Shown here: positions 3,901 through 54,380 of the stretch, one piece after another
How the letters are laid out: every line of letters begins with the position of its first letter
Position numbering within the stretch: position 1 is the stretch's first letter
Assembly (NCBI RefSeq): GCF_008831285.2
Contig: NC_045147.1
Location: 4,814,334-4,878,333 of the forward strand
Source: Nymphaea colorata
Taxonomy: Eukaryota > Streptophyta > Magnoliopsida > Nymphaeales > Nymphaeaceae
DNA: 64,000 bases
Direction: 5' to 3'
Notes under the pieces: generated by a model
The model's database searches: none
Seen by the model: only the letters and a program-made list of their open reading frames with translations
What the model was told of the DNA's origin: nothing
Translations under genes and position numbers: made by a program

Positions 3901-4058
3901 AGGGAAAGGCACTCTAATCTACTGAAGTATTGATTTAATTTTAGAGTCATTTGAATCAAGTATTTTTGGAAGATGTAATACAATCCATCTCAAGGGTCCT
4001 TATCAGGTGGTTACGCTTTCTTCATGTGCATCAATTTCGTCAACATGAAGGAGTGGTG

Positions 4059-4248
4059 TGTTGTAACAAATTTGTTAAGCAATGATTCTTTTTAGAAATA
4101 TCTTCTTGTAATGTGTATAAATATCTCTCATCTGTTTAATAACAAAATAGAAGAGGAGTTCTACTCACAAAGTCTTTTGCTATCTCTATTTTTGTAGCTT
4201 TGTTTCTTCTTTCTTTCACCTTTCATTGCCTTGTTCTGCAATACAACA
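4059..4248 (+). repeat. 3' LTR of the first copia element (190 bp)
   Basis: The segment begins TGTTGTAAC and ends ATACAACA, giving the TG...CA ends and a short inverted repeat (TGTTG/CAACA). It follows the purine tract directly and contains a TATA-like GTGTATAAATATC segment. At 190 bp it is short for a copia LTR. No partner LTR is in the window for comparison. Confidence 0.7.
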
Positions 4249-4559
4249 GACCAGAGGTTTTGTTTTGTTTTTTCTACATTCCTTTTTTTTACACAGCAGT
4301 AAGTTTTAAAAATTTAATTTGTCTGGTTTCGATTTTCAAGTTGGTAATATCAATATGACATGTGAATTTTAATAAAATACACAAAGGAGAAAAGAGATTG
4401 TACCTCTTCATTAGATTTCTTCTCTATCCTTATTTCTTTCTTCATGTCCGCAACATGATTTTCATTAACATCCCCCTCAAGGAAGACAGGAGGGGACATA
4501 TGTATATCTTGTGACAGAGCAATCCAAACATTTCTCTTAACAATGGCTTCATCAGACCT

Positions 4560-5471
4560 CAATTATATATTTGATCCTTGGACTACAAATATTGAACTTT
4601 CACTATCTTTTTGGCAACTAGACATATTTTCAACATGTTTTGTTCTAGAATGAAATGTACTGACATTGTCATGCCATATTGTAAGGATCAACTTGGTTTG
4701 AGCCCCTAAAACAGCTAAAGGGTTTTGGATCCAAACTTCTTTTACAGCCGCATAATTGGCAATACCCTTCTATTCCGCTTACATGCTTGAATGAGAACCA
4801 ATATTTGTTTTTGAGAACTCCAAGATATCAAATTGTACATGTCTAAGAAAAATACATATCCTGCTATAGACTTTTCATCCATGGGACACCCAGCTCAGTT
4901 AGCATCATTATAGATATTGAGGAAAGTTGACATGACATTACATATAAACAATCCATGATTTGCCATAGCTTTTAAATACCTCAAAATTATTTTAACTGCA
5001 CCTCCATTGGTATGGGTGCCTCATAAATTGGAAAACTCCGTTGACATTGAAAGAGATGTGTCATGGCATATTAGAGTGCCCCAAAGGTATTGCAGAAAAG
5101 ACTTGAATATCCAAAACCAGTTCTATGATCTCCTTTTTGAAGCTTAGTTGTGGTAGCCATTAGCATCACCACAGGCTTAGCATCAAGCATATTTACTTTC
5201 TTCAATAGATCCCAAAACGTATTTCTTCTTAGACAAAAACATCCCTTCCTTGGTTTGGATGGCACAATACCAAGAAAGACACTTCACCTAAGTCCTTTAA
5301 AAAAAACTGCTTGCCAAGAAACTGGATTAAAAAGGAAACATGCCTAGCATCATTGTTAGTGATTAAAATGTCATCAACATAAATGAGAACATAAATTGAG
5401 ATATGCTGCTGATTGAGAAAAAAAGAGAGAAATCTGTTTTGGACTCTTTGAAGCCAAAGAATGCCATTCAA
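4560..5471 (-). pseudogene. copia reverse transcriptase/RNase H fragment
   Basis: Read on the minus strand, this holds a reverse transcriptase catalytic block (VLIYVDDILIT near 5370-5400). The 'LKDLGEVSFLVL' block and LLKKVNMLDAKPV (near 5190) follow. An RNase H region comes next, with a DANWAGCPMDEKSIAGY-like stretch near 4880 and a TKHVE motif near 4640. Frames are interrupted and neither LTR nor gag is recognisable. It is opposite in orientation to the adjoining copia element, so it is a separate older fragment. Confidence 0.75.
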
Positions 5472-7565
5472 ATATCATATGAAGACACCAAATCAAGGAA
5501 TTGAGTATGAATGGTTCAGTTAGGGAAGACAAAATTGATCCTACGAGGAGCATATCACATCTGCAACATTTAGAATATTCATGATGTGCAATGCCCACAA
5601 ATAGTTATTACATGTATTGTGCAAAAGAAGTGAATTGAAAATTAATGCTTAATTTTGCCAATTAGTATATGACTCTTTCTGTCCTAGCATAAGCAGTATA
5701 AAGGGTGTCTGCATAATTAATGAAAGGCATAATCTGTCCTAAGTAGTTATAAGATTCCAGATTCTAGTGTGAAACGACATATAGGTGTGACAACCCATCA
5801 AATATACTCATCATGTGGGCAGCTCATAATAAACATGCCATTTCATAGCCAGTCATTGCACAGTATATTATATATACAATAAACGCACACCCAAGCCAAA
5901 ACTATGAGGTGTTTGTACAGTAAATGCTCCAAGCCAAAAATAGACAATACATGATTCTAAGAAATAAGAATGGCATCAGTACCCCAAAAAACAATGCTTG
6001 CTATACAATAAACACACACCCAAGCCAAAATAATGAGGTGTTTGTACAGTAAATGCTCCATGCCAAAAAAAAAAAATTACAGGAGCCTAAAAAACAAGAA
6101 TGGCATCAGTACTCCAGAAACAACCCTTGCTCCAAGACAACTCACATGATCACTAGTCGCTACCATCCACATGATGAGAACCTAAGAGTAAAATTTAAGT
6201 AAAGTCAGGCTTCTTTGAGTATAGCTTAACTTCTAGCCCGTCGTGGGTTTAGTGAACATAAATGCAAGTTAAATCACACAATGTAACAGCAAGTGAGAAG
6301 GAAGCATATAAACAAAAGTCTCAATGTAGTAAAAAACTATATTAGTACATAAAGTTACATGAAAAACATATAACATCAACAAGTTCTGAATGCTGATAGA
6401 TGCGCCCCAAGAGGGTGAATGATGGAGGAGTTGGCGGCTGCTCCTATTCAATGGCCAATAGAAATAGAACAAATGTTGGGTCCCTGCACTACCCACTTAA
6501 TGCCTTGTACAGTGGGCTCAATTGGTAATCAACCAATCAGATAGATGATCTTCACAAAAAACAACATCCAGCCATAGGCCATTGACCAACACTTTTTCCA
6601 ATTTAGGTTGATAAACAAAGAAATTTATTCACCAGTTAGAATAAACTAGGCAACATAATAGTCAATTATCTACAATAGTGGGTAAACAGATGACGTGTCA
6701 TATAGTTGAGTAGTTGATATGTTCAATCCATAAGTATTCTAAGACACATAACGCAACCACATAAAAAGTCTCTTTTTTGCGTTATGGTATGCAAGCTTGA
6801 TATCAAATATGACATTTTCTGTCAAGAGGCCTATTAAAATTCATCCCAAATGACGTCATAAAGTAAATCATCTTTATCTCTTTCAAAATTTCTCAACAAT
6901 CTCATTCAACATAAAAAAAAATGGCAACTATGGATGAATCTTTTTTGGAGAAATAGATATTCTGCTAGCTAATGGAGAAAAAGATATTCGTTAACTGTTT
7001 GGAACCCCAAAGTGGTTTTATTGGAAATTTGACATTCATAAGAAGCAATCAAACAATGAGCATCCAGATTGATTAGATTCCCCTTATAAAATACAGCTAC
7101 ATGTCTTAGAGCTACTGGTGGATCATGGCAGTCTGAAGAGATTTTCTCACTGATAAGGGGAAAAAGGTGAGGGGGAAAAAGATGAGAAAAATAAAGGATC
7201 ACTGCAAACACAATGAGAAGCATCACTTCTATGGCTTTCTACATGTACTCTTGTTTATTTTTTAAGAACTTGGCTTTGCAAGCAATGAGAGCAATTGAAA
7301 ATAGATTATAGTGCCTATCATGAAAAGAGACTTGACAGCATACTTGTGGCTTGACCAATCATTTTACCACTCACATGAAGCTTTGAGGAATTTATCTTCA
7401 CAAGAACATTTAGTGTTTGAATGCAGCTAAGAGGATATCTGGATCAATTGACCTCAGCAAGTTGTTGAAATACTGAAAAAAAATTCTCATATTAAGTGGA
7501 AATATGAGGGCCAAAAATCACAAGATTAAGTATAAAAACAGTAAAATGCAAATAGTTTATATAGG
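5472..7565. other. intergenic stretch without a supported gene
   Basis: No open frame here resembles a known protein and no splice-bounded exon stands out. It contains the 129-bp tandem duplication described separately. The rest is AT-rich unique-looking sequence, probably old repeat debris. Confidence 0.5.
5875..6132. repeat. two-copy tandem repeat, 129-bp period
   Basis: The stretch starting TACAATAAACGCACACCCAA at 5875 recurs at 6004 as TACAATAAACACACACCCAA. Both copies share the internal blocks GAGGTGTTTGTACAGTAAAT and AAGAATGGCATCAGTAC in the same spacing. The copies differ by scattered substitutions and a poly(A) expansion in the second copy. Confidence 0.8.
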
Positions 7566-10639: not shown

Positions 10640-10753
10640 ACCCTTGTCGTACTTTGCTCCTCTGCATTCCCTCCTTGGTGCGTTGCAGCCTCTCTTCCTC
10701 ATTTTGCATTATCAGAAACGCGATTGAGTGTGAATCAAGGGAGTTCGCCAACA
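10212..10753 (+). repeat. candidate 5' LTR of a second copia element
   Basis: A primer-binding site lies at 10756, so an LTR should end at about 10753, where the sequence is GCCAACA. A matching start, TGTTGTTGC at 10212, gives TGTTG/CAACA ends and a 542-bp LTR. Inside are two CT-rich tracts and an internal imperfect duplication around GTGGTTAAAGAGAAGTG. The right boundary is well supported by the primer site; the left boundary is inference. No 3' LTR remains. Confidence 0.5.
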
Positions 10754-10755
10754 TT

Positions 10756-10767
10756 TGGTATCAGAGC
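10756..10767 (+). other. retrotransposon primer-binding site
   Basis: TGGTATCAGAGC is the classic plant copia primer-binding site, complementary to the 3' end of initiator tRNA-Met. It sits two bases after the candidate LTR end and about 40 bases before the gag start. Confidence 0.9.
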
Positions 10768-10805
10768 ATCCAGGTTGTATGCCAAAACTCCTTCGATTCA
10801 AGCCA

Positions 10806-12905
10806 ATGTCAATCACCACAAATGAAGTAGCGCAGAAGATCTCCAGTGGGACGTTCCAGTATCTGCTGCTCATGGCAGCCAACTATACCAGCTGGGTAAT
10901 TAGGGTCCAAGCCACGATGGAGGATCAAGGCGTCCGGGAAGTAGTCGAGCCGGTGGCCGATGTGGCTGTCGACACGAGGAAGGACAAGAAGGCGAAGTCA
11001 CATCTTCTCCAAGCCCTCCCGAAGGATCTCCTAATGCAGGTGGCAAAGAAGGCAACAGCTAAGGAGGTCTGGGATTGCCTCAAGACGAGATTCGTCGGGG
11101 CAGATCAACCAAGGGAGGAGATACCTGAGGTAGTAATTGAGTCAGAAAAGAGATGACACACGTTTCACAAGGAGGCTGGGAAATGGTGTACTTACCTGGC
11201 ACTGCCGCTGCTCATGAGGAATGCGCACCTGCAGATGTTGAAGATCGACTTTGACACCATGAAAATGCAGAAAGAAGAGTCGTTGGATCAATATGCGGGC
11301 AGGCTCACCAGGATGTCCATCAAGTATGCCAACTTGGGGGGAACCCTGAGTGACGCCGCCCTGGTGAAGAAGTTATTTGACACTATTCCAAATCAATTTC
11401 TCAGCATAATCGCTAGCATAGAGCAGTTTTGCTACCTTGACAATATGTTGTTTGAAGAGGCTGTGGGACGACTCAATACCTACGAAGAACACTCTCGTCC
11501 CCGAGCATTCGGAACCGGTGGCAACGGCGATGCTCAACTACTTCTCACTCAGGCCGAGTGGGAGGCACAACAGAAGAGAAGCGGCGGCGACCCGTCATTG
11601 ACCCGAAAGGAGAAGGCTCACGGGGAAGGAGGAGTTTGTAGTTGGGGTGGTCGTGGACGTGGCAGAAGGCATGGGGACTTCTCACTCAATGACAGAGTAG
11701 GTGGCTCTAGGGGTGGTGGTCGTGACAAGAGTCACATCTGTTGCTTCAATTGTGACAAATTAGGGCATTACACGAACCGATGCAAGGCTCCCAAGAAGAA
11801 GGAGGGGGCGCATCTCACACAAGCTGACGACACTGAGCCAGCCTTGCTACTTGCAGAGTTGGAAGAAATGGTGTCTGCAGCACTTGAACAACCAGAATGG
11901 CAGGATCGGTAGGATGTCGTCCTACTGAATGAAGAGCAGGTATGGCCGAAACTGCACGGGACCAAGCACGACATGGAAACTACTGACATTTGGTACCTAG
12001 ATAACGGTGCCAGCAACCACATGACTGGAGACAAAGTCAAGTTTCATGAGTTGGATGAGGCAATCACTGGCAAGATGAAGTTCGGCGATGGCTCATTAGT
12101 GCAGATCATGGGTACGAGTTCAATTCTCTTTAGATGCAAAAACGATGATCAATGGCTGCTCCAGCAAGTATATTATATCCTGAGGCTTTGCAGCAACATC
12201 GTGAGTCTTAGGCAACTCACCGAGGCAGGCCACAAGGTGGTTATGGATGAAGACGAACTGGAGGTGTTCGTCCAAAATCCATGGCAGCTGATCATGAAGG
12301 TGAGACACACACTTAATGGCTAGGCTGGTGTGCCTCCTGACAAATCTCGAATATCCGGCATGGCTTTGGCATGCTCGTCTCGGCCTTGTAAACTTTCAAT
12401 CAATGAAGATGCTTGTAAACAAGAAGATAGCAACTGGGGTACCGCCGATTACTCATCCCGCTAAGTTATGTCGGGAGTGCTTGGTGGCAAAGCAGACGAG
12501 ACCACTGTTCTCGTGGACAGCCAACTATCAAGCGAATGAACCACTCGAACTCTTGCATGCTGATCTCTTTGCGAACCGATCACACCACCCACCCCTGCTG
12601 GTAATAGTTATTTCTTACTATTCGTTGATGACTTCTATCATTGGATGTGGTTGTGTGTGCTCGTAACGAAAGACCAAGCATGCTCGGCTTTCATAAAGAT
12701 TAAGGTGCTAGCCGAGAAGACGTGTGGGTGTCGCGTCAAGAAGCTCAAGACCGATCGGAGAGGTGAGTTCCTATCTCTTGAATTTGCCAATGTGTGTGAA
12801 TAGGTTGGCATTGTGTGGGACCTCACCATGTCATACTCATCACAGCAAAACAGTGTGGTGGAGCGGAGGAACAGAACGGTGATGGCGATGGCAAGATCTC
12901 TGGTG
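10806..12905 (+). pseudogene. copia gag-pol, truncated in integrase
   Basis: Gag starts at the ATG at 10806 (MSITTNEV). It shows the LLMAANYTSWVIR and EVWDCLKTRFVGADQ blocks, then breaks into about 105 bases of foreign sequence with a stop. Gag resumes near 11212 and runs through LTRMSIKYANLGG to a CCHC knuckle (CCFNCDKLGHYTNRC, near 11740). Protease (DNGASNHMTG, near 12000), the pre-integrase zinc region (WHARLG and CRECLVAKQTRPLF, near 12370-12500) and the integrase core (FVDDFYHWMW, then QQNSVVERRNRTVMAMARS near 12850) follow. The element stops abruptly near 12905 where an opposite-strand copia fragment begins. RT, RNase H and 3' LTR are missing. Base composition in gag is more GC-rich than the surroundings. 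Confidence 0.85.
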
Positions 12906-14515: not shown

Positions 14516-15165
14516 TTTTCAATAATTTATTATAAAAAATTTAAAAATTTTATTAATTCTATGTAGTATTCAGATCCGGGTTCAAATTGGCCCTACCCCT
14601 ACCCGGATCGAACTCCAACTCCATGGCCCGCCCCACTTTTGTTTGCCCTAGGTTTTCAAAAAAGGAAAAACGCACGAGGGAGAGAAAACGAGAGATAAAG
14701 AGAGAAGAAGAGAGAAGAAGAGGGTCTGAGAGTGATAAAGAAAACCAGTGAGAGAAAAAGGGAGCACCGACTACCGCACTGAAGAAGGTCTGCAGCGTGA
14801 CGAAAAGGAAGAGACAAGAGGCGCTGAGCACGAGCACGCTGGTCGCTGCTGCCTGCTGGCTTCAAGAAGAGGTGGGGCCATTTCCTTACTTTCTTCTCTG
14901 TTCATTTTTGTTGCTTAGTGAAATATGGTGGGGCCGTTTTTTTCATTTAGTTTTTGTGTTTCTTTTTTGTTAACCTTGTCTGTCATTTTTCTTTTGTCTA
15001 TGGTGGACCGTGGGTTTCTAATTTCTATTATGCACATTATTTATTTTTTAACCTTGAATCTTAATCGTTCAAAGTTTCATCATTTTCCATGACTTTTCCT
15101 GCCGTGATTTATTTTTCCTAGTCTTAATTTCTAGGATTTTGACGTTTTGTGAACACAATCTTAAC

Positions 15166-15173
15166 GTGGCTTG
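15166..15173 (+). repeat. target-site duplication, left copy (GTGGCTTG)
   Basis: This octamer lies immediately before the CAGGGGCGGAG terminus of the inner hAT element and is repeated exactly at 20433-20440 after its other terminus. Eight base pairs is the hallmark duplication length of hAT transposition. The same octamer occurs uninterrupted inside the inner element (19728-19735, reverse complement), marking the equivalent empty site. Confidence 0.95.
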
Positions 15174-18100
15174 CAGGGGCGGAGCTAGGATTTTTTCTCA
15201 GGGCGGGCCGAACGGTTCAACTAACTGTAATACATTATATATATATATACTCACACACTTTAGACATTTGCAAACCATAGTGTATTAAAAGTGAACATAT
15301 GTCGTATAAAATTGCCCACATCATGAACGTGAAGCGCGACCTGTCCTACAGCACATTTTAATAATTGTTTGTGTCATTAGCACAAAACGCGATCTGTCCT
15401 AAACAGATAAGGTGCTCTATTTCTATTACAATGACGTAGGTGTGGACATAAAGTGGACATACAAACATCACAACAAAAATATAGCAAACAAAGACATCTA
15501 CAAACTAGAAAACCAAAATAAATATTACTTACCTAAAACAAGCAATTTTGCATTCTTTCTATACAATACAATCTGTTTTTGACTTTATTTTTATTGAAAA
15601 TAGTTCCATATCATCATTCATTCACCTGCACAATAAAATGTAAATAAAAAATATATAATTTATTATTGCAACTAAATAATAACTCAAATAAACATTAACA
15701 TAAAAAGGATGCAACAAAATACTTTACCTATTGTAATTGTGCTCTACGGCTTTTCATCTTATAAAAGGCATCAATGATATCATCTGAATCAAACATTTGA
15801 GCAATTTCTTTTCAATATACAAAAGTAGACAATCTGCAAAGAATTCATCCTCCATTTTGTTACGCAACCTTGTTTTAATAAGTTTCATAGCAGAGAATGC
15901 CCTTTCTGTGGTTGCAGTGGAGACAGGAAGTGTTAGAATGAGACTAAGCAACCTGTATACATAAGGATATTCTTTACTTTTTCTACTTCGTATCAATACT
16001 TCACATACATCTGATAGTGTACCCAAATTTTGAAAACTTGGATGATGACAAATATCATTCTTGTAATGTCTCAACTGATAATTTAAACTCATAAAATCTG
16101 AGTCAAAAAAATCTTCAGGATAGAACTTCTGTGCAAGAGTGTATGCATCTTGTGCATTAAACGACTCATATTGATCTCTAGGGTTGAATGTCGACATCGA
16201 ACGAAGTATTTCCATAGAATTCTCATTAAATCTATTATTCAACTCTACCAACTGAGAATCAATGGCAGCAATAAAAATATCAACATGATAATGATGTATC
16301 ACTGTAATGAAATTATGTTCATGACGAGAACGTGATCCTCTTACAAAATATTGAGCATCCATATCTGGAATAGGGATATCATATGTCATACAAAATGCCC
16401 CCACAGTATCTATAAATGAATCTCAACCAGTCTCTCTAAGTTCTTGTAGAAACTTTTTTGAATTACAAACCAAAACCATTGCATTTAGAATGTCTTGTCT
16501 TTCTCTCTGTAATGCCTGACAAAGAATATCACTCTGTCCCAAAATTTCTTGTACCAAATGCAAAATAAATACAAAGTCAAATGATGTTATCATTTGGTAA
16601 GCTGAATTACCTTCACCCCGTATTTGATATGTTGATCCATTATCTCTTAAATTTTCCAATACTACACATGCTGCATAGAACGTTTTTATCAAACTACACA
16701 CGGACGAAAAATGAGATCCCCATCTAGTATCACCAGACCGTTGTAGTGATCCAATTTGATTAAGTCTTCTTCCTGTCTGAAGTTCATCTGTAGCAATTCT
16801 AAATGCAATTTCGTTTGCTTGAACTTCGTGCAATTCATCATTGCGTTTACTGCTTGCACTAACAACATTAATTATATATGTCAACTGTTCAAAAAAGCTA
16901 TGAACATCAACAACTTCTCTTGAAGCTGCAACAAGTGCAAGTTGTAATCTATGAGCAAAACAATGAACATGATATGCATAAGGACATTCATTCAAAATTA
17001 ATGCTTGCAATCCATTCCATTCACCTCGCATATTAATGGCACCATCATATCCTTGACCTCCTATATCTTGAATACTGAGATTATGTTGAGACAACAAAGT
17101 GAAAACTGTATTCTTCAATGTAATTGCTGTAGTATCCCTCACATGCACAACATCTAAAAATCGCTCTTCAACTTGACCTTGCTTATTAACAAATCTAAGA
17201 ACAACAGCCATTTGCTCTCTCTTGGACTCATCTCGAGCTTCATCAATAATAATACAATATTTAGCATCACCAATTTCTTCTATAATTTTAGCTCTCACTT
17301 TACTTGCAAAAACATGTAAAATTTCTTTCTGAACTGTTGCTGATGTATATTTAGCATTTTTGAGGGCATTATCCAAAACAACTTGTGCAACATTGTCATT
17401 ATAATTAGCTAAAATTTTAATGAACTCAATAAAGTTACCTTGATTTAATGAACTTGAACTTTCATCATGGCCTCTAAAAGCACAAGCTTGGAACGCCAAC
17501 CAACGAACTGTGTCCACAGATGCCTTCAATCTCAAACGATTGTTGTAAACAAGCTCTGAACTTTGCTTTTCAATCATTTTATCTATGTGTATGCTTTGAC
17601 GACTTAAGTCATTAAATGCTCGCACATTCATATTATGAGGCGAATTTTGACTTGTCCCTTCATGACTACGAAAAGCACATGTTTTCTCACTACTACCCAC
17701 CCTCATCCAAGCTCTGAATCCTTCAGTAATAAATGGACTGTCATTTGAATGTGGAGTACTGAAAAGATAACACGGTAAACAATATGCACTATCTGTCTTT
17801 GGAGAATATTCTAACCATGAAAATCTTTGAAACCAAGAACTTTGAAATTTACGAGGATGACTTGAAGAACCTGACACTGGATATCTATGAAGCTTATGCT
17901 GATATGACCCATAATTGATATATGCTCGCCTAACTTCATCTCTCTTATTTATTGGTATCTCCCATATAGGACGTCACAACCCTGGATCACGCACGATGCT
18001 TTCTACAGTTTCAATTTTTGAATACTTAAAAGGTGGAGAATCTGAGTCAAAAAGAACCACATCAAGAGCTTTTGGACTAGAACAACCAGCATTTTGGTCT

Positions 18101-20432
18101 TCTCCTTCCTGATTTTCTCCCTCTTGGTTTTCTCTCACTTGATCAATAACTTGTTTCTTTTTGAAATAATCTTGTATACTTTTCTTCATTTTCTCAATAA
18201 GCTCACACAAAAAATCTGAAATTTAAAATAGACAATAAGATTTATACACAACGAAGAAAGTACTCAAATTTTAACTTGTGAAAAGCAGGAATTTAAAATC
18301 AACCACCTTATAAACAATAGATAAAGAAAATTTACCTGTTGAACCTCTTGCACTATGTAGAACAATGAAGAGTTGTTTTCGCCCCTCGCTAACTTGCTTT
18401 TCGAATTACCACAAGTGGAGTAAAGTCTGAAAAATAAAACAAAGAATGATTTTAGGCCTTTATGAAGCTACTTTTATAAATTCCTACAGATGCCATTTAA
18501 CTTTTTTCACTTCTCATCAAATCGCCATTTAACTTAGAACATTTAAGTGAAATGACGGATGCCAATCAACAAGTTCTTTCGCTGCTACTCTCCTATTTCA
18601 CCAAGTTCTCCTACTCTACTAAGTTCATCTTGATGTGTTGATCATATTGCTGACTTCATTTTCTCATCTTTAAGACTACTAATGTCAGATAGTGTGCCTA
18701 GTGTATCATTAAATCCAAGGACAAAATCTTGATGATGTGGATCTGGGTTGTCCTGCAACCTTGTGCTTCTTTGAGTAATACTATGGACTCCTCTATGATT
18801 CATCCACACACATCATTAATCAAGTTGCAGTGTCATGTAAATGCATTATGTCACCAACAGGGCAGATTCCCTGACTTTATTGTTGGTTTCTGACATGAAA
18901 TTGCCGTATCACTACTCCGTGAGAACAACACCAACAGGTTATACTGTGAAAAGAGTCATAAAGATCAAATTGTTGTTCTGTAATATAGCAAAAAGTCTGT
19001 CCAGCATTTACATGTGAAATCTGCCAATTTGGAGTTTTCCCTTTTCGTTAAAACAAGAGACAAGGAAAATCGAACAGTATTTTTGACGCCATTGATTTGG
19101 CTTATCTTTCTTTCTTCATTGTGGTCCAGACTCCAGAGAGATTAGATACAAGATTTTTACATTCAGCACACCCACCAACTCTTCTAACTGCATGTATTCC
19201 CTTTTAGAGAATTGAACTCAATTGGTTGCCTCTGCAGTGAATGATTTTTTTTTTTAAATTTTGTGTTGCAAAAATCCGTTGTGAAAGGTTCAATAGTGAT
19301 GACAATTGCTTGCCTATGATTTTTTTAGTGACAGAATACATATTTTATAACAATTTTTAGAAACACAAACTAAAAAGAAAAAAAAATTGTATTCGACTAG
19401 AGAGGCAACATGCTGATTTATCTTCCTCCTAAAATTTCAAGCAACTTTTCTTCCTCCTCAATTCACAGAAGTGGAAAATGCAACGTTTCTTTTTCCTTTG
19501 ACTTAAAACAAATTGCTGCAAGTCCCCTTTATAAGGAAGTTCCAATGTTAATTTTATCTATTCATGTGATTGTATGGGGTATTCCCAAATCCCACTTAAA
19601 GTAAAAAGAATGTCGTGGGTACTGGGTACTGAAAACATGACTGCAAAGTAAAAAACATGTGAGAACGGCAGCCATCAATGAAGCATTGAAGCCCATAAAC
19701 AGTTCGTGGATGCAGAGAAAAATCTGCCAAGCCACGTCAAGATTGTGTTCACAAAACGTCAAAATCCTAGAAATTAAGACTAGGAAAAATAAATCACGGC
19801 AGGAAAAGTCATGGAAAACGATGAAACTGTGAACGATTAAGATTCAAGGTTAAAAAATAAATAATGTGCATAATAGAAATTAGAAACCCACGGTCCACCA
19901 TAGACAAAAGAAAAATGACAGACAAGGTTAACAAAAAAGAAACACAAAAACTAAATGAAAAAAACGGCCCCACCATATTTCACTAAGCAACAAAAATGAA
20001 CAGAGAAGAAAGTCAGGAAATGGCCCCACCTCTTCTTGAAGCCAGCAGGCAGCAGCAACCAGCGTGCTCGTGCTCAGTGCCTCTTGTCTCTTCCTTTTCG
20101 TCACGCTGCAGACCTTATTCAGTGCGGTAGTCGGTGCTCCCTTTTTCTCTCACTGGTTTTCTTTATCACTCTCAGACCCTCTTATTCTCTCTTTATCTCT
20201 CGTTTTCTCTCCCTCGTGCGTTTTTCCTTTTTTGAAAACCTAGGGCAAACAAAAGTGGGGCGGGCCATGGAGTTGGAGTTGGATCCGGGTAGGGGTAGAG
20301 CCAATTTGAACCCGGATCTGAATACTACATAGAATTAATAAAATTTTTAAATTTTTATAATTAAATTTTTTTTTTCCTCCGCCGAGGGTAGGGCCATGGC
20401 CCAGGCGGCCCCCCCCCCTCCCTCCGCCACTG
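15174..20432 (-). mobile_element. inner, full-length Tip100-like hAT element (5,259 bp)
   Basis: The element begins CAGGGGCGGAG and ends with the complement of CAGTGGCGGAG, an 11-bp terminal inverted repeat with one mismatch. It is flanked by GTGGCTTG on both sides. It carries a TTF-zinc-finger/hATC transposase gene on the minus strand with a long 5' leader. Reading on the minus strand, it starts with a G-rich terminus, then an AT tract, a purine-rich leader, the transposase, and an AT-rich 3' end with a short TA repeat. The ends, duplication length and protein type match the Tip100 branch of the hAT superfamily. The element is structurally complete at both termini, but its transposase is broken, so movement would need help in trans. 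Confidence 0.93.
15728..18189 (-). pseudogene. hAT transposase (TTF zinc finger, DUF4371, hATC), inner copy
   Basis: The first ATG (18189) opens an acidic, glutamine- and glutamate-rich N-terminus. The TTF-type zinc-finger region follows (SWFQRFSWLEY then YCLPCYLFS), then a DUF4371-like catalytic region (IIDEARDESKREQM, GYDGAINMRGEWNG, HCFAHRLQLALVAA). It ends with the hATC dimerisation block (PVSTATTERAFSAMKLIKTR). Three lesions are visible against the outer copy. A TGA at 17974-17976 is shared with the outer copy. A TGA at 16423-16425 replaces a tryptophan. A one-base deletion near 15810 scrambles the last 30 or so residues. An AG acceptor (ATTTCAG) just upstream of the start suggests a 5' UTR intron. 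Family function: cut-and-paste DNA transposition in the nucleus. Confidence 0.9.
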
Positions 20433-20440
20433 GTGGCTTG
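20433..20440 (+). repeat. target-site duplication, right copy (GTGGCTTG)
   Basis: This is the exact repeat of 15166-15173, directly after the CCGCCACTG terminus of the inner hAT element. The sequence that follows (GCAGATTTTTC) resumes the outer element at the position homologous to 19727 in the inner copy. That confirms the outer element was the target. Confidence 0.95.
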
Positions 20441-21978
20441 GCAGATTTTTCTCTGCATCCACGAACTGTTTATGGGCTTCAATGCTTCATTGATGGCTGC
20501 CGTTCTCACATGTTTTTTACTTTGCAGTCATGTATTCAGTACCCAGTACCCACGGCATTCTTTTTACTTTAAGTGGGATTTGGGAATACCCCATACAATC
20601 ACATAAATAGATAAAATTAACATTGGAACTTCCTTATAAAGGGGACTTGCAGCAATTTGTTTTAAGTCAAAGTAAAAAGAAACGTTGCATTTTCCACTTC
20701 TGTGAATTGAGGAGGAAGAAAAGTTACTTGAAATTTCAGGAGGAAGACAAATCAGCATGTTGCCTCTCTAGTCGAATACGATTTTTTTTTCTTTTTAGTT
20801 TGTGTTTCTAAAAATTGTTATAAAATATGTATTCTGTCACTAAAAAAATCATAGGCAAGCAATTGTCATCACTATTGAACCTTTCACAACGGATTTTTGC
20901 AACACAAAATTTAAAAAAAAAAATCATTCACTGCAGAGGCAACCAATTGAGTTCAATTCTCTAAAAGGGAATACATGCAGTTAGAAGAGTTGGTGGGTGT
21001 GCTGAATGTAAAAATCTTGTATCTAATCTCTCTGGAGTCTGGACCACAATGAAGAAAGAAAGATAAGCCAAATCAATGGCGTCAAAAATACTGTTCGATT
21101 TTCCTTGTCTCTTGTTTTAACGAAAAGGGAAAACTCCAAATTGGCAGATTTCACATGTAAATGCTGGACAGACTTTTTGCTATATTACAGAACAACAATT
21201 TGATCTTTATGACTCTTTTCACAGTATAACCTGTTGGTGTTGTTCTCACGGAGTAGTGATACGGCAATTTCATGTCAGAAACCAACAATAAAGTCAGGGA
21301 ATCTGCCCTGTTGGTGACATAATGCATTTACATGACACTGCAACTTGATTAATGATGTGTGTGGATGAATCATAGAGGAGTCCATAGTATTACTCAAAGA
21401 AGCACAAGGTTGCAGGACAACCCAGATCCACATCATCAAGATTTTGTCCTTGGATTTAATGATACACTAGGCACACTATCTGACATTAGTAGTCTTAAAG
21501 ATGAGAAAATGAAGTCAGCAATATGATCAACACATCAAGATGAACTTAGTAGAGTAGGAGAACTTGGTGAAATAGGAGAGTAGCAGCGAAAGAACTTGTT
21601 GATTGGCATCCGTCATTTCACTTAAATGTTCTAAGTTAAATGGCGATTTGATGAGAAGTGAAAAAAGTTAAATGGCATCTGTAGGAATTTATAAAAGTAG
21701 CTTCATAAAGGCCTAAAATCATTCTTTGTTTTATTTTTCAGACTTTACTCCACTTGTGGTAATTCGAAAAGCAAGTTAGCGAGGGGCGAAAACAACTCTT
21801 CATTGTTCTACATAGTGCAAGAGGTTCAACAGGTAAATTTTCTTTATCTATTGTTTATAAGGTGGTTGATTTTAAATTCCTGCTTTTCACAAGTTAAAAT
21901 TTGAGTACTTTCTTCGTTGTGTATAAATCTTATTGTCTATTTTAAATTTCAGATTTTTTGTGTGAGCTTATTGAGAAA

Positions 21979-24441
21979 ATGAAGAAAAGTATACAAGATT
22001 ATTTCAAAAAGAAACAAGTTATTGATCAAGTGAGAGAAAACCAAGAGGGAGAAAATCAGGAAGGAGAAGACCAAAATGCTGGTTGTTCTAGTCCAAAAGC
22101 TCTTGATGTGGTTCTTTTTGACTCAGATTCTCCACCTTTTAAGTATTCAAAAATTGAAACTGTAGAAAGCATCGTGCGTGATCCAGGGTTGTGACGTCCT
22201 ATATGGGAGATACCAATAAATAAGAGAGATGAAGTTAGGCGAGCATATATCAATTATGGGTCATATCAGCATAAGCTTCATAGATATCCAGTGTCAGGTT
22301 CTTCAAGTCATCCTCGTAAATTTCAAAGTTCTTGGTTTCAAAGATTTTCATGGTTAGAATATTCTCCAAAGACAGATAGTGCATATTGTTTACCGTGTTA
22401 TCTTTTCAGTACTCCACATTCAAATGACAGTCCATTTATTACTGAAGGATTCAGAGCTTGGAAGAGGGTGGGTAGTAGTGAGAAAACATGTGCTTTTCGT
22501 AGTCATGAAGGGACAAGTCAAAATTCGCCTCATAATATGAATGTGCGAGCATTTAATGACTTAAGTCGTCAAAGCATACACATAGATAAAATGATTGAAA
22601 AGCAAAGTTCAGAGCTTGTTTACAACAATCGTTTGAGATTGAAGGCATCTGTGGACACAGTTCGTTGGTTGGCGTTCCAAGCTTGTGCTTTTAGAGGCCA
22701 TGATGAAAGTTCAAGTTCATTAAATCAAGGTAACTTTATTGAGTTCATTAAAATTTTAGCTAATTATAATGACAATGTTGCACAAGTTGTTTTGGATAAT
22801 GCCCTCAAAAATGCTAAATATACATCAGCAACAGTTCAGAAAGAAATTTTACATGTTTTTGCAAGTAAAGTGAGAGCTAAAATTATAGAAGAAATTGGTG
22901 ATGCTAAATATTGTATTATTATTGATGAAGCTCGAGATGAGTCCAAGAGAGAGCAAATGGCTGTTGTTCTTAGATTTGTTAATAAGCAAGGTCAAGTTGA
23001 AGAGCGATTTTTAGATGTTGTGCATGTGAGGGATACTACAGCAATTACATTGAAGAATACAGTTTTCACTTTGTTGTCTCAACATAATCTCAGTATTCAA
23101 GATATACGAGGTCAAGGATATGATGGTGCCAGTAATATGCGAGGTGAATGGAATGGATTGCAAGCATTAATTTTGAATGAATGTCCTTATGCATATCATG
23201 TTCATTGTTTTGCTCATAGATTACAACTTGCACTTGTTGCAGCTTCAAGAGAAGTTGTTGATGTTCATAGCTTTTTTGAACAGTTGACATATATAATTAA
23301 TGTTGTTAGTGCAAGCAGTAAACGCAATGATGAATTGCACGAAGCTCAAGCAAACGAAATTGCATTTAGAATTGCTGCAGATGAACTTCAGACATGAAGA
23401 GGACTTAATCAAATTGGATCACTACAACGGTCTGGTGATACTAGATGGGGATCTCATTTTTCGTCCGTGTGTAGTTTGATAAAAACGTTCTATGCAGCAT
23501 GTGTAGTATTGGAAAATTTAAGAGATAATGGATCAACATATCAAATACGGGGTGAAGGTAATTCAGCCTACAAAATGATAACATCATTTGACTTTGTATT
23601 TATTTTGCATTTGGTACAAGAAATTTTGGGACAGAGTGATATTCTTTGTCAGGCATTACAGAGAGAAAGACAAGACATTCTAAATGCAATAGTTTTGGTT
23701 TGTAATTCAAAAAAGTTTCTACAAGAACTTAGAGAGACTGGTTGGGATTCATTTATAGATACTGTGAGAGCATTTTGTATGACACATGATATCCCTATTC
23801 CAGATATGGATGCTCAATATTTTGTAAGAGGATCACGTTCTCGTCATGAACATAATTTCATTACAGTGAGACATCATTATCATGTTGATATTTTTATTGC
23901 TGCTATTGATTCTCAGTTGGTAGAGTTGAATAATAGATTTAATGAGAATTCTATGGAAATACTTCGTTCGATGTCGACATTCAACTCTAGAGATCAATAT
24001 GAGTCGTTTAATGCACAAGATGCATACACTCTTGCACAGAAGTTCTATCCTGAAGATTTTTTTGACTCAGATTTTATGAGTTTAAATTATCAGTTGAGAC
24101 ATTACAAGAATGATATTTGTCATCATCCAAGTTTTCAAAATTTGGGTACACTATCAGATGTATGTGAAGTATTGATACGAAGTAGAAAAAGTAAAGAATA
24201 TCCTTATGTATACAGGTTGCTTAGTCTCATTCTAACACTTCCTGTCTCCACTGCAACCACAGAAAGGGCATTCTCTGCTATGAAACTTATTAAAACAAGG
24301 TTGCGTAACAAAATGGAGGATGAATTCTTTGCAGATTGTCTACTTTTGTATATTGAAAAAGAAATTGCTCAAATGTTTGATTCGGATGATATCATTGATG
24401 CCTTTTATAAGATGAAAAGCCGTAGAGCACAATTACAATAG
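21979..24441 (+). pseudogene. hAT transposase (TTF zinc finger, DUF4371, hATC), outer copy
   Basis: This copy has the same architecture as the inner one. The ATG at 21979 lies about 27 bases after an AG acceptor (TTTAAATTTCAG). The TTF zinc finger is near 22310-22410, the DUF4371-like core at about 22560-23350, and hATC near 24230-24330. The C-terminus is intact (ending RRAQLQ). Two in-frame TGA codons break it. One at 22192-22194, where related proteins usually have Arg, is shared with the inner copy. One at 23395-23397 is private, where the inner copy has GGA. About ten amino-acid differences separate the two copies over roughly 770 positions, so they split recently. An older shared lesion plus private ones implies neither encoded the enzyme that moved it, unless the TGA is read through. 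Confidence 0.9.
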
Positions 24442-24999
24442 GTAAAGTATTTTGTTGCATCCTTTTTATGTTAATGTTTATTTGAGTTATTATTTAGTTG
24501 CAATAATAAATGATATATTTTTTATTTACATTTTATTGTGCATGTAAATAAATGATGATATGGAACTATTTTCAATAAAAATAAAGGCAAAAACAGATTG
24601 TATTGTATAGAAAGAATGCAAAATTGCTTGTTTTAGTTAAGTAATATTTATTTTGGTTTTCTAGTTTGTAGATGTCTTTGTTTGCTATATTTTTGTTGTG
24701 ATGTTTGTATGTCCACTTTATGTCCACACCTACGTCATTGTAATAGAAATAGAGCACCTTATCTGTTTAGGAGAGATCGCGTTTTGTGCTAATGACACAA
24801 ACAATTATTAAAATGTGTCGTAGGACAGGTCGCGCTTCACGTTCATGACGTGGGCAATTTTATACGACATATGTTCACTTTTAATACACTATGGTTTGCA
24901 AATGTCTAAAGTGTGTGAGTATATATATATATATATAATGTATTACAGTTAGTTGGACCGTTCGGCCCACCCTGAGAAAAAATCTTGGCTCCGCCCCTG

Positions 25000-27900
25000 C
25001 TCAGTCCCCATGTTGAAACCAAGCGACTCGAAGGATCTTCTTCAAGCAAATGGCTTTTTATCTTGAAGCTGTAGGGGCATTCAGACTTTAGTGAGTCTCT
25101 ATAGGATTCAAGAGGTGAACAATGTTGTACCATTGAGTCTTTTGTAATATCATTGTACTATAGTAATCTATGTTTATCTTGCTCAGTTTTTCCACGAATT
25201 GGTGGATATTTGCATATAATTGATCGGTCTAAAATAATCATTTGGATATTTTAAGACTGCTTAAATAATATCTTGTTCTTAAGTTGTGCCGTGGGCAATG
25301 GCAGCAGTGAGCCGTCAGAGTGGCTGCAGCTGCATCAGCCACCTGGTGGGTTGGTGGGATAGGAAAGGGACTTTTGCCGACACTTCAAGAGAGCTGGTCA
25401 TGGTGCTGTCGTCTCCCGCGCTCGCAGGCCGGAACTCAGCCCGGAACTCCTAACACGCGCATGCCCAACGCTGGTAAGCCGGGCATGACTTTTCCGGGCA
25501 TCTATTAAATGCGGAGAAATCCCAAAACTGGTGGTGTCCGTTGACATCAGGTTACGTATATCACTGCAACACCCCTGCGTTTCAGTATATCGTTAGCTAC
25601 CAGGCAAGGCCTGTATCTCTCTGTTGTCACATGATTGTAAGAGCCTTATATATGCCTTCTTAGAAGTTAAACCCTATGATCTTCTAGGTGTTGGGCAAAG
25701 GAGTGACATCCCAAGTTTTGTTTTCCGTGAAGAACCTTGAATTTTTTTTTTTTTTTTTATGCTTATGTGGTAAAGGCTTTTATTAAGCGGCCAGGTGTAC
25801 CTACTCAAAGGAATCAGTTAACCGATTCCTCGCCCAGAGCGGCATGATGATAGAAAGGATATAGATTATTGATCCAGACTTGGGCCCTCAAATGGAAATT
25901 GGAAGAAATATGAAATTGTCTTCTTTGATAACTTCGTCATGAAAGATAATTAACCTTACTGGTCCCAGCATAAACAAAGCACTTGAACCTCTTGGAAGAT
26001 GAATATACCAGAGGGCTGAACTAATTATCTCTTCTATTCGGTCTCTTTGGAGAGAATAACTGATAGAATGGTACTAAGAGGTTCGATCGCTTTTCCTTCC
26101 TCTCAGTGATGCTAGAACAAATGCCATACTGCTAAATGTATATTGCTGATTAAGACTCATTTTCTTACCTTCCAATATTTCCAAGGTGTTTTTCCTTAAT
26201 TTGAAGTTTTGTGATGACAGCTTGTTACTTAGAGGTTATAGCTACCACATCACTCTAAATGCATTTGAAGCATTAGCATGCAAGTCACTTCAAGAAGACG
26301 TGGTTCTTTCTTTATGGTCATTTAATGTACACGTAGGAGGTGTGAATCCTTTATCATTTCAAAAGTTGTCAAATAAATGATTTCTGTTTGTGGTATTATT
26401 ATTTGTTTCAAGGAATTACAGTCATTCGTATTGAGATTCAATCATGCTATAAAAAATTTGAAAATGTTCACGAACTTCACATTCTGATTTCAGAAGGAAA
26501 ATCTATGTATTTTTCTGAAAATCATTGATCTAAAATAATAGAATATAAACGTGTCCATCAATCAACCTAAGAGTCTCAAATCTCAACACACACACACACA
26601 CACATATAGAGAGAGAGTGAGAGAGGTTTGCCCAACCCTTTTAATGATTTGTCATCTTAAAATAAATCCTATTCTAATATTCTCTCCTAATAACCATGTA
26701 CAACGTTTTGGTGTCTACCCACCCCGAGATGGCTAACATTTGCGCATAGGGCCTGCTTAAGACCTTCAAGTTGAGGATGGTCAAGGGATCGATATCTGGG
26801 GTATGGTACCCTGCTTCAAGTCCAAGGTATGACTTTGACTTTCATAGTTGCCAGAGTACCTGATGTTCTGCATTTCATGTGCTCTTTGCTCCATCATTTA
26901 CTATTAAACAGGTACCATGGCTAAGGTGCACCAAGATCCGCATCTGGAGTTCAAAATTGGGCACAAGGCTGGCCCAATAAGTTAGGGGTCGGTCCAGGTT
27001 GGCCTGAGTAGGGCCCGACTTGGCCCAATAGCTTACTTTTAATATTATTCTATTGATTTATATATATAATAATTTATACATTATTTTATATTTAAAATAT
27101 ATATCTTTTAATTCTAATCAAGTTGGGCCGGGCCTGGGCCCAGGTTTTAAGTTGCCAAGCCAGCTGTGGGCTGCTGTCATGGGCTGTGGGTCGGACCGAG
27201 GCCGACTCTTTTATTGAGCTGCAGCAAACGCCAGCCCGATGCTCAGCTTTATTGGAGTTAGCACAACGAGAATTTAGTTTTCGATGAGAACTTGTCTTTG
27301 AATTAGGTGTATGATCAGTCTAGATTCTGTCTCATTATGTCCAATTCCTATACATTCATTCTAAACCGTCATTTTTTGAGTGAAACCTAATTCCTAGATG
27401 TGGCTCACAAGCATCTGGACTGAATGAGGCAAACCCTAAATCTGTTGGCTCAAATTCTTTCAGGATTGGCCTAAGCTCTATCACATATTTTTCATACAGG
27501 TCTTTGCAAAATGGCTCCTGTGTTGAAGCTTTTTTGACAAAAGCGACAAACGTATATTTGGTTTAGCAAAAACTTCCTCTGCTCTTAGTGATTTCCATGC
27601 AAGCCAGTTACATACAGGTCTGATTTTGCCTTTTTGGGTGCAGTTACAAGTCAAATTAAAACCCTAATTTTTTATGATTTTATCCAAGTGCGGATGCAGA
27701 TGCAGTCCAGTATCGATAAATGCATCACTATTGTACTTCATTTGGGTGTTTAAATTATATTTTATGACTTGTAAATTCTGGGAAGCATAGGTTGTTGAAT
27801 TTTTCAGTTACTACAGATTTCATTTCTACTCTAAATAAACTGGTCCAGGAGTAGATATTACATGCTTTCTATTGAAAATCAGATCCATGTGATTGGAATT

Positions 27901-32409: not shown

Positions 32410-34687
32410 CTAGCTTCACCCCTCATAGACGGAGCATAGCAGGTCCAGTTCATATCCAGCTGCAAGTGAAATTGGCTAAATCCAGAAACAAGAGAATATG
32501 GCATACTCCACCAAGGGCATGAGAGTTTCTAATGTAAAACAACGAGTGATCCCTATGGATGAGGAAACACTCTTCCCTAAGAACATTAAGTTCCGATGAA
32601 AATTTTGACAAGTTATTCTTTTATGCAAAATTTTAAGTTAAAATTTGATTAATGTGTTTCATTTATTAAATTTTGAATGAGTTCATAGTAAATAAGTGCT
32701 TAGCTTAAAGAGAATTTAGACGTCGTTCAAATTTTTGTTATTTAGAATGTATTCCCATTTTACAAATGAACCTTAGAAAGCGTCTATAAGTTTTATTGAA
32801 AAAATTAAATAAAGTGATCAATTTTTAAACATTTTTCGAATGTACAATTTTGTAAAATATTTCATCCATTCCTAAGTTTGTGACTTTTGTTGAGTTCTGA
32901 AAAAGGAAAAAAAAAAACATTTGAACTTTTAGACGTTGCCAAAGAACATATGGAGGCTCAAATCGACTTTAAATTGTCTGGCTATGACGAACATGTTTGG
33001 GCTAAAGCCATTAAAGGAGGCGTGTCCTCAAGAATTCATTTCTCGTCCAGGAAAGAAAAATGGGAATTCTCAAAAATTTAGGTGGTTGTTAATATATCAA
33101 AACTTTAAGCGCATTTTTATAATTAAAGAAAAGAATAAGGCAATTTCAATTTTTTTTTTTCCCTCACGGAGAAGAATGCTTGCATTAAGTTTCTTGCCTG
33201 CTGCGGCAGACGGCTGGGAAATTGGGGAATGCATGCTTTAGTTGCTTTGTGAAGTAAAGAAAAAGGGAAGGAATTGGACGGTGGGCCCCATCTCTTTCTG
33301 GGCAGAGACTTGGGAGGGAAGGTTTCTCTATTTGATGTGAGCGAAAGGTGGACGAGCTCCAGCCCAGCCGACCGGCCAACGGAAATAAATTGCTGCCGCC
33401 GTTTAGCCCCAACTACTCAGCTTATTCATTTAACGGGCGTGTTTGTCGAATATGCATTTCATGCTAAGGACGTTAACCATTCATTTTGGACAATGATATG
33501 TTTTAATTTGAATGTTGTGATCTTATTTTTTATTATGATCTTAGGTGGTAACATTGGTAAATAATGCAGGACAATCAAACGGGCAGTATTCAGGGGCAAA
33601 ACCAAGGTAGGGTTTGCATGGGTTGTCGATGCACTAAAATTTTTTTTTAAAAAATTTACATGTATATTTTACAAAAATTTACTTAGTTTGTAAAAAATAA
33701 TATTTTAACCCTAGTTAAAAGATAGAAACTTTAATTCAGTCTCCTCGTCGTGAAAATTTCTTGACAGTATCCCTTTTATGTGCTCTTCTACCCAACCATC
33801 CTACGCTCCTTTAAAAAAAAAAAAAAAAACATGAAGTTCACCACATATTCCACACTTACTTCCAACCCCACATATTTCAAATTACTTCCCTGGGGATTGC
33901 CCCTTGATTTTTTTTTATTATTATTATTAAGCTATAAAGGATACAACAACTAGAAGGAACGACAATATAAGCATACGCTAAGTGGAAGAGGGCTCGAAGA
34001 CATATTTCTGATGATTTAGTTGAAAAAAAAAAAAATCATGAAAATTTGGTGCTTGTTTCAATAATAACTGAAAAGATATTATCCTTCCTTCCCTTGCACA
34101 AGCTGTTTAAAGATAATTGTAAGTTAGAAGAAAGGGTTCATTATGCAGAGAATGAATTGAAACAAGTGCAAAATTAGCATTTTACGGGTTCCAAGTTCAA
34201 CAAAAGAACACTGCTGCCGCTTCGCTTGCAGTGCCCAATTGTTATGGAGCATTCTTAGCCAGACTTATAGGAATACGTATCAAATCAAAAGTCTTGGATG
34301 ATGGCTCCAAATCTCCCTGCGGCCGTAGGTTCGGTAGTAGCGTCGGGTCGCTCTTATTTTGGGAAAGGCTTGCGTTGCGTTGCGTTGCGTGCTTGCAATG
34401 AGGGACGGGGAAAGGTTTGTGATTAAATGGAAAAGAGGAGGACAGACATTTGATGCACGCCACGCTCCCCTCTTTCCTTTTTCACTTTACTTGACGGAGG
34501 GGGGAAGCTTTTACTTACCTGGTACAATAGTCGAGGCGACGCCTCCTTCCGTCTGCGGGCGTAACGCTTCGTTCTCTCTTGCGCGCGCCAATTTCTGCAA
34601 GGTTTCACAGCAGAAAGCAGCAGCAAGAGAGGGCAAAAGGAAAGGACAGAAGGAGAAAGAGAGGAATCGACTTGGAATGGGAGGGAG
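32410..34687. promoter_or_regulatory. upstream region and 5' UTR of the DEAH-RBR gene
   Basis: No protein-coding exon is supported here. The last 350 bases become GC-richer and include a short TTGCG tandem run near 34370 and a purine-rich leader (GGAAAGGACAGAAGGAGAAA) just before the start codon. A non-ATG frame overlapping the start is treated as a shadow. No unambiguous TATA box was seen, which fits a broadly expressed gene. Confidence 0.4.
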
Positions 34688-37600
34688 ATGAGGAGGATGG
34701 GTCCCTCACACTTTACTTCGGCCTACGGTCGGAGGGCGAGGCCGGAGTTCGAGGTTCAATTGGTGGCGTCGGGATGGAAAGGGTTTCGGGCATCGGAAAT
34801 CGATGAAGTGATTCTGGCATGCCCTCCTGCCGACGTCACGCGAGTTTGCCAGTCAGGCGTCGTAGCTGCACTGCTCGGATACCGGCAATGGGACGACGCA
34901 GCGCAGGCCGTCATAGCGATCTGGGTGGGCAGGCTTGCCGGGGGCCACTTTCTCACCCCTCAACTTCGTGCCTTTGGTTGCTCTACGGCCAACCGCGAGA
35001 AGCTTGCGTTGAGGCTGAAGTCGGTGTTCGTCTCGCACATTGATGGGCTTCTTGAGGGCGACGCAGTACAGAGGTGCAGGAAGAAGCTCGAGGTGGTGGA
35101 GAAGGAGGTGGCGGACGTTAAGACCGCGATGAAGGGGAGAAACGCTTTGGCAAGGTACAGGGCACTGCAGGAGAAGGTGGAAGGCCTCAATGTACAGAAG
35201 AATCAGATAGCGAAGCGGCTCGAGGAGTTCCAGAGTGCGATGCTCGCTGTGACGTCGTTTCTGGAGCTCTCGGGTGAGGATTCCATTGAGAGTGAGGCCG
35301 AATTATTCTTGCTCGGCGATGATCAGGAGCCTAATTGGGACAGGATTCACCACGTTCTGTTGAGGGAGTGCCGGAGGCTTCAAGAAGGGCTGCCTATCTA
35401 TTCCTGCAGGCGCCAAATTCTCAACCACATCCATTATCGACAGGTTGGTCTTCTCAATCTTTATTTTTCCCCCAATTTCAGTTTGTCTTTGTCGTTACCA
35501 AGTTTGAACCCTATTGATGTTATTGTTATCTCCTGTGAAGCCTTTTTCATATTATCCTGCTTGTAGGAGCGTCACTTGTTCATATGGACGACTGAAATAA
35601 TAAGAAACTGCCAAACGACGTGGTCCGCCTTGTCGCCTAGATGGATTCAGTTTAATCGCTTAAATTCTCTCGTGTTTGGTACTATATGACACTGTTTGAC
35701 AGTATTTTTCCTGGATCATGTATGCATCGTCTACATTGCTGGACAACTAGCAGACAGTGGATTGTATAAGGAGTGCGGTTTCTCGTGGGCCAGAATGGTG
35801 CCCCATGTCCTCAAATGCCTAACAAAAGTAAGAAGGAACGGTAAGAAAGGGAATTGTTTGGCTGATACTGCACACTATACAGTATGACAGATTTTCTTTT
35901 ACGAGCTGGAATCAGGCTGAAAGTTAATACCTGTGAAAGGTCGTCAGATAGCAGGATCAAATTGGGTAAGCTTTAACAGTCATTCAGAAGCTCACGCGGG
36001 TAAAAGATCCATGCCTACTGATAGATTTTCTCCACTCAATGGTCTGCTGTAAGTTGTTACCGTGACTTTCTCAGTCCAAGCTTAAGAAGATCTGTTACAG
36101 ACATGATTGTGTTCTTTTAGACCTTATGCAAAAGCATTTTGACTTGTTGCAGGCATGACTGTATTTTCTTATACCTAATGCAAAAGCATTTTATGTACAT
36201 AGGAACTGAAGATTTCTGCTGGAGATGTTCGTTTCTTAGCCGTTTGCATCTGTTCTGGATCAACTTGGGAGCCCAGACAAAAAGTTGAGCATTCTTGTGT
36301 ATGGATCCAAGTTCGTGGATGTTGAAAATGTAGCTGGGGTGTCTATCTGGCCACTGGGGTTGGCCAGCTTTTTCAACATTTTGAAGATTTTTTAGATGAA
36401 CCCTACAATATAGATGAATTTTACCTGTCCAAAAATGTAAGGTACAAAAATCACTAAAATCGGATATGTCGATTGGATTTTATAAGAATTTTGAAACCAA
36501 GGAAGGTATAGAGACAAGGCAGGTAAGTGCACAAGGCAGCGAATAGTTAGCCAAGTTGGAGCAGGGGAGCATGTGTGGGCTAAGGCTAAGCCTCTTACTG
36601 GATGTATAGGCTGTAATTGCAATTGCGTGGCTTGAGGTTGACCAAAGGGAAATTTCGGTATCAAGCAAGCAATTATTGCTGTTCTGCTTATGAGACAGTG
36701 ACAACTGGTCGATTGGGGATTGCTTCCCACAACAATCATCCTTCAATCATTTGGTTATCACAAAGGCATTTGATTGCATGAGTGTTTTGGTGCCTTGCGG
36801 TCATTGCGCATTTGATGGTCTTAAAATCTGTATGTTAGTTTGCTGAGTACCTAGAAGCACTCCTCTTTTGGTCCAACTTTTGGCACATCGGTTAAAAAGT
36901 TATCCCGTGACAACAATATGATTACATGTTTGACAGAACTAACTGTATGGATGAGATCTCCATGTTCCAAAAACATGGAATGGACAAAAACCTTTTGACG
37001 TATGTATTGGATATTGGAAGGGAAAAAGTTCAAGAGTTTGATTTGAAACCCTTGTACTAGTCAGAGAAAGGATGAGATTTTTTTTCTTCCCGTTCTTAGG
37101 TTTTTTAAACTTGGATACCACATCTGAATAGTTATTTTCATAAGAACCACATTTATAAGGAAAATGTTTAGCTATAATGGATTGAACTCAAGTAACAGTT
37201 TTCATATATTTGTGTGTGTTGTTGGTATGTTTAACTTTTTAGAAGATATATTTTTCGGCATATGCTTAGTTAGCTGGAGCTGTGAGTTGTGGGTCTGCGA
37301 CCAATCTTAGTTTGTACCGTTTTTTACTTATAAACTGATGTTTCTACTTTCTTTAGTTTTTACCATTTTTTCTTCTAAACTGAACTTTTCTAGTTTCTGT
37401 CTATTATTCTTATTATTGTTATTATTAATTTTTTTTTCACTGTGAACAAGCAGAAAAATTGTAGTTCTTTTTTTTCATTCTGTTGAATCAATAACGTAAA
37501 GAACAACAAATTTGAAAAGCTCTTGCCTTTCAGCAAATGACGTTGCAGTTAGTCTATCATGAATGCGCAAGCCTGCAAAACATTTATCAGATTTCATCCT

Positions 37601-42365: not shown

Positions 42366-42421
<56 letters not shown>

Positions 42422-49440: not shown

Positions 49441-49628
49441 TGTTGACAGAAATAATGTTAGTTGGGTGGTTATTAGAATGTTAGAAAAGTGGAGTGAGTG
49501 CCTCTTAATAATTTCCTTTTATTATGTTGACTTTAGTGTAAATTGTTTGCAGGACATGTCTCTCTATTTTAAGAGAGGTTAGGGTTAATCAAAGGTCAAT
49601 TTTTTTTGTTCTGTTTCAAACAGTTGCA
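49441..49628 (+). repeat. 5' LTR (188 bp)
   Basis: It starts TGTTGACAG and ends CAGTTGCA, directly before the primer-binding site. It aligns along its whole length with 54195-54380, with scattered substitutions and small indels. The sequence is very short for a copia LTR. Confidence 0.9.
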
Positions 49629-54140: not shown

Positions 54141-54194
54141 AATATTGTAACAAGCTCAGCATGATAGATATATTTGCTCTAGTTTAAGGAGGAT

Positions 54195-54380
54195 TGTTGA
54201 CAGAAATAATGTTAGTTTGGTGGCTATTAGAATATTGAAATGGTGGAATGAGTTTATTTTAATAATTTCCTTTTATTATGTGGACTTAAGTGTAAATTGT
54301 TTATTGTGCACCTCTCTCTATTTAAGAAAAGTTAGGGTTAATCAAATGTCGTTTTTTCTGTTCTCTCTCAAACGGGTGCA
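54195..54380 (+). repeat. 3' LTR (186 bp)
   Basis: It begins TGTTGACAGAAATAATGTTAG directly after the purine tract and ends ACGGGTGCA. It contains a TATTTAAG promoter-like segment, as the 5' LTR does (TATTTTAAG). Differences from the 5' LTR are numerous enough to suggest an old insertion. Confidence 0.9.

Follow-up and report, generated by a model that had tools for sequence, protein, structure and literature searches.

A reverse-oriented hAT transposon nested within a truncated copy of its own family in Nymphaea colorata

The window analysed is a 64,000-nt stretch of Nymphaea colorata DNA (contig NC_045147.1, positions 4,814,334 to 4,878,333, forward strand), and all positions below count from its first letter. 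Between 14521 and 24999 it carries two copies of one hAT element, one lying inside the other. Left of this nest, a broken copia-type retrotransposon remnant (10734–12666, plus strand) has gag matches flanking an in-frame stop; of these, one exceeds the Pfam cut-off, and the next frame is integrase-like by eye only. To the right, a large host gene resembling a DEAH11/DEAH12 helicase occupies 34565–44459 (plus strand), with helicase, RRM, KH, RING and IBR domains; the Pfam scan of this gene covered 37855–41088 and 43197–44456, and membership of the frame at 34565–35566 is a guess. The N-terminus of an HD-ZIP protein was detected by Pfam scan at 58329–58757 on the minus strand (E = 6.3e-9). The DEAH11-like helicase with its IBR domain, the HD-ZIP N-terminus and the copia gag all suggest a plant host.

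The nest is built from two interleaved inverted pairs, identified by a BLASTN self-match of the window. The long pair aligns 20433–25000 with 19735–15173 over 4,568 columns (99.0% identity, 40 mismatches; arm of 4.57 kb), and the short pair aligns 19728–20370 with 15173–14521 over 654 columns (96.5% identity, 11 mismatches; arm of 0.65 kb). A second self-comparison, which returned these arms in five ungapped pieces, placed 697 nt between the long ones. The inner copy is 5,259 bp long and lies on the minus strand at 15174–20432, with its 3′ end at 15174 and its 5′ end at 20432. The outer copy lies on the plus strand as a left, 5′-side part (14521–15173) and a right part (20433–24999). The 697-bp spacer at 19736–20432 includes the 5′ end of the inner element and would form the loop of any hairpin RNA.

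The insertion junctions are well preserved. The octamer GTGGCTTG occurs on the plus strand immediately to either side of the inner copy (15166–15173 and 20433–20440), an agreement reached by the flanking octamers of only 4 in 200,000 spans of 5,259 bp drawn at random from the window, and its reverse complement stands uninterrupted within the inner copy at 19728–19735 (minus strand). When 40 bp from each flank of the inner element were joined, 79 of the 80 positions matched the uninterrupted inner copy. The inner element starts with CAGGGGCGGAG and, on the other strand, with CAGTGGCGGAG; its two ends agree at 10 of 11 terminal bases. A scan for the terminal inverted repeat (TIR) pattern that allowed up to one mismatch returned three sites in the window, all perfect (15174–15185, 20421–20432 and 24988–24999), against a mean of 0.33 expected; three or more matches were seen in 1 of 100 shuffles. 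The duplication, the inverted arms and the match of the joined flanks together establish that the inner hAT element is a reversed insertion inside another copy of its own family. A sequence-only reading of this stretch had proposed such a self-insertion in opposite orientation, with a perfect 8-bp duplication at both junctions, the same octamer marking the empty site in the inner copy and two interleaved inverted repeats, and all of these features are borne out.

Membership in the hAT superfamily is supported by three features: the 8-bp duplication, the short TIRs and a C-terminal dimerisation domain. Within the superfamily, the family is probably Tip100-like, the label given to it in the sequence-only reading. 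These three features are also the likeness to the Tip group, which is defined in PMC3942097; the hAT size of 2.5–5 kb quoted there is slightly exceeded by the inner element, at 5.26 kb. Relatives of a 516-aa piece of the inner transposase were sought in collections of viral, prokaryote and solved-structure sequences, which are uninformative on plants and for which a null result is expected of a plant transposon: viral contigs gave four pattern matches and prokaryote genome contigs 18, none of them confirmed, and PDB sequences gave none at E up to 1.

The outer copy is incomplete. Its right TIR is kept (24988–24999), and the terminal ~60 bp of its 5′ side, with the TIR, are lost: the first 62 bp of the inner copy, which hold the TIR and a G-rich block, align with nothing in the outer copy. 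Homology at the left border ends at about 14521, its securely matched, ungapped part starting at 14535; to the eye, a weak AT-rich resemblance may reach ~13 bp beyond that limit on the left. The earlier description of an element nested in another copy of the same element therefore stands for the inner copy, which has both TIRs, and needs amending for the outer one, which is not whole. The 5′ loss may have come before or after the nesting. A target duplication belonging to the outer copy was also considered and dropped: its right flank, CTCAGTCC, is not repeated exactly around the left border, which makes such a duplication not demonstrable, and with up to one mismatch it matches 29 times in the window, where 33 matches are expected by chance.

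Neither copy can encode a whole transposase. The outer frame (21979–24441, plus strand; 820 codons and a stop) is broken by TGA at codon 72 (22192–22194) and codon 473 (23395–23397). The inner frame (15728–18189, minus strand, its end set at the position of the stop equivalent to that of the outer copy, as read off the sequence) is broken by TGA at codon 72 (17974–17976) and codon 589 (16423–16425), and one base is missing near the C-terminus. A Pfam scan of ten proteins from the window found DUF4371 and Dimer_Tnp_hAT domains in both copies. Four of the proteins are large hAT pieces: both N-terminal pieces carry DUF4371, and both C-terminal pieces carry the dimerisation domain (PF05699; E = 1.1e-11 in the outer and 4e-12 in the inner copy, both over the curated cut-off). 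The outer copy's N-terminal piece of 71 aa had no Pfam match. A hairpin RNA from the locus had been said to contain the whole transposase sequence, which is right as to length, but both frames are broken. Comparison of the 791 codons ahead of the frameshift showed 16 that differ between the copies, 14 of them by a residue change or a stop, where 76% would be expected without selection.

Differences between the copies are clustered. Substitutions occupy 55 columns of the gapped alignment; five in the AT-rich border (inner positions 65–76) were excluded, leaving 50 at inner positions 77–5259. By segment, there are 10 at 77–705, 8 at 706–1045, none at 1046–2243, 1 at 2244–3371, 17 at 3372–4694 and 14 at 4695–5259, the boundary at 4694 being a rough guess at the frame end (actually 4705) with no substitution falling in between. 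A near-identical tract at inner positions 1046–3371 thus has one substitution in 2,326 bp; it spans 17062–19387 on the inner side (minus strand) and 20781–23106 on the outer side (plus strand), the latter coordinates being derived from the alignment, which is gap-free across these positions. Segments outside the tract differ by 1.3–2.5%, or ~1.7% overall (49 of 2,857 positions), and all three indels between the copies, the missing end aside, fall outside it. The longest gap free of differences, 1,683 bp, was not reached in any of 200,000 uniform shuffles, and after merging of neighbours within 20 bp into 38 events it was reached in 3 of 200,000. From the divergence outside the tract, either the inner and outer copies were already distinct family members when they nested or the nest is not very young.

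This clustering suggests, as its most natural reading, gene conversion from arm to arm over ~2.3 kb. Purifying selection on the protein is an unlikely cause, since about half of the tract (1,198 of 2,326 bp, with no substitution) precedes the ATG, and of the 16 codons that differ, 14 are replacements or stops. The tract could instead have been inherited from a mosaic source copy, or it could be the product of assembly homogenisation in the central part of an inverted repeat. Assembly artefacts are known to include long inverted repeats, and the almost identical middle of the arms would also suit a palindrome that is false altogether, made by a chimeric or fold-back read. A fold-back would not, however, make TIR-bounded junctions, an 8-bp duplication and an intact site in the inner copy, nor would it give 1.3–2.5% differences and indels outside the tract, and we find an artefact of this sort barely credible. 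The shared stop at codon 72, which we had considered as proof of a dead common source, falls inside the near-identical tract and so does not show that the source copy was already dead; that argument was dropped. Long inverted arms with excess identity are likewise found in the sex-chromosome palindromes of mammals and willow, and gene conversion is stated for the mammalian ones in PMC7023750. Those palindromes bear genes, whereas the present one is a transposon nest in which conversion is our interpretation of the uneven divergence. That unevenness offers a way of testing whether the arms of a transposon palindrome convert each other.

Both copies share splice-like signals, assessed by eye, that suggest a 5′ gene structure. 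Predicted intron 1 of the outer gene has a weak donor (AG|GTGGGG) and a better acceptor (ATTTTTCAG); predicted exon 1 would end near 14871, exon 2 would span 21742–21832 and exon 3 would begin at 21953, ahead of the ATG at 21979. On this layout the inner element probably lies within the 5′ intron of the outer gene (now 14872–21741, plus strand), antisense to that gene.

This position bears on a silencing role of the kind attributed to maize Mu killer, whose design the sequence-only reading had invoked. In such a role, RNA transcribed rightward from the outer copy's own promoter would carry first the inner transposase in antisense, next the 697-nt loop and then the outer transposase in sense; it would fold into a ~4.5-kb duplex, be diced and silence the family in trans. 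Arm length, near identity and the antisense–loop–sense order all follow from the coordinates, and broken coding frames would not prevent the role. Against it, splicing would take out one arm if the inner copy is intronic, as it probably is; the rightward transcript would have to cross the entire inner element, where AATAAA occurs 12 times on that strand (a raw count, taken without a chance control); and the outer 5′ terminus, a possible promoter site, is gone. Mu killer is described in PMC3440606 as a MuDR element with an internal deletion and a partial duplication, by which MuDR is silenced. Plants in which it silences are reported there to have antisense transcripts of 0.65 and 0.74 kb that start at a promoter within Mu killer itself; these short transcripts, which accompanied silencing, are unable to form large hairpins (PMC3440606). 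In the authors' account, this internal origin disproves antisense read-through from flanking genes; read-through from a flanking gene yielded sense transcripts, and did so in plants where silencing failed. They still allow that longer transcripts, present as a minor class, contribute as long hairpins (PMC3440606). With its short antisense transcripts and possible longer hairpins, Mu killer itself is not settled as a simple hairpin case. The likeness to it is one of architecture only: an inverted duplication of DNA-transposon transposase sequence is present here too, whereas the cause here is a nested hAT insertion. We regard a hairpin silencer at this locus as unlikely.

Maize double Ds, in which a hAT element sits reversed inside another member of its family, with an 8-bp duplication and directly oriented 5′ and 3′ ends, was not mentioned in the earlier comparison. 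By analogy of structure it is the closer parallel for this nest, and Mu killer the less exact one: the reverse-orientation insertion into the same family, with its target duplication, is found here as well. The present nest differs in that the outer 5′ ~60 bp are missing, where a double Ds has both outer ends, leaving one of two directly oriented end pairs, and in that each copy has a long transposase frame, now broken, which measures 2.46 kb in the outer one. Nesting is described as rarer for Ds types in a maize Ac/Ds survey, with one case of Ds-l4 within Ds-l3 (PMC3260210). The same survey suggests that nested Ds elements break chromosomes and are selected against, and its account of B73 records no chromosome-breaking double Ds (PMC3260210). 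A surviving inverted nest of another hAT, with one outer end gone, raises the question of whether loss of ends or of transposase is what allows such nests to persist. Among the literature matches listed, the titles and opening lines of abstracts mention no inverted self-nest in a Tip-type hAT, which does not prove that none has been reported.

The remaining end pair, the inner 5′ end at 20432 and the outer 3′ end at 24999, has the geometry linked to Ds breakage: the two are directly oriented and 4.57 kb apart. An active transposase of the family could, on the double Ds model, join them between sister chromatids, and the locus would then be a site of bridges, breaks, deletions or inverted duplications. 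Bridges and breaks can arise where 5′ and 3′ ends of Ac/Ds lie in direct orientation on sister chromatids (PMC3744419), and nested Ds elements are said to gain chromosome-breaking properties (PMC3260210). Such activity requires a living transposase of the family, however, and both local ones are broken; it presumes Ac/Ds-like behaviour of the present hAT group; and the ~1.7% divergence beyond the tract, if it arose in place, means that the locus has survived for a long time. A chromosome-breaking site strikes us as decidedly improbable. Less probable again is a combination of these ideas, a persisting double Ds-type nest outside Ac/Ds that was tamed by the loss of one outer end and whose converting arms and hairpin RNA silence its own family; we give it very little weight.

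We consider it likely that the locus is a double Ds-type self-nest that has undergone truncation, frame decay and arm conversion and is now inert. Inertness would follow from the lack of a whole transposase product and from the outer copy's loss of an end without which it could not move as a unit. In this proposed history, a plant hAT member, probably Tip100-like, jumped by ordinary cut-and-paste into the 5′ non-coding region of a same-family copy, probably into intron 1, and came to lie there in reverse orientation, with an 8-bp duplication resulting. Before or after this insertion the outer 5′ terminus was lost and the two transposase frames decayed, and the long inverted arms later seem to have exchanged ~2.3 kb of sequence by gene conversion. 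An inert relic requires nothing beyond hAT transposition and decay.

Two smaller repeats lie elsewhere in the window: a tandem repeat of two copies at 5873–6131 (129-bp unit, 86% matches), and a ~190-bp direct repeat at 49440–49629 and 54194–54381 (83% identity), possibly a small dispersed element.
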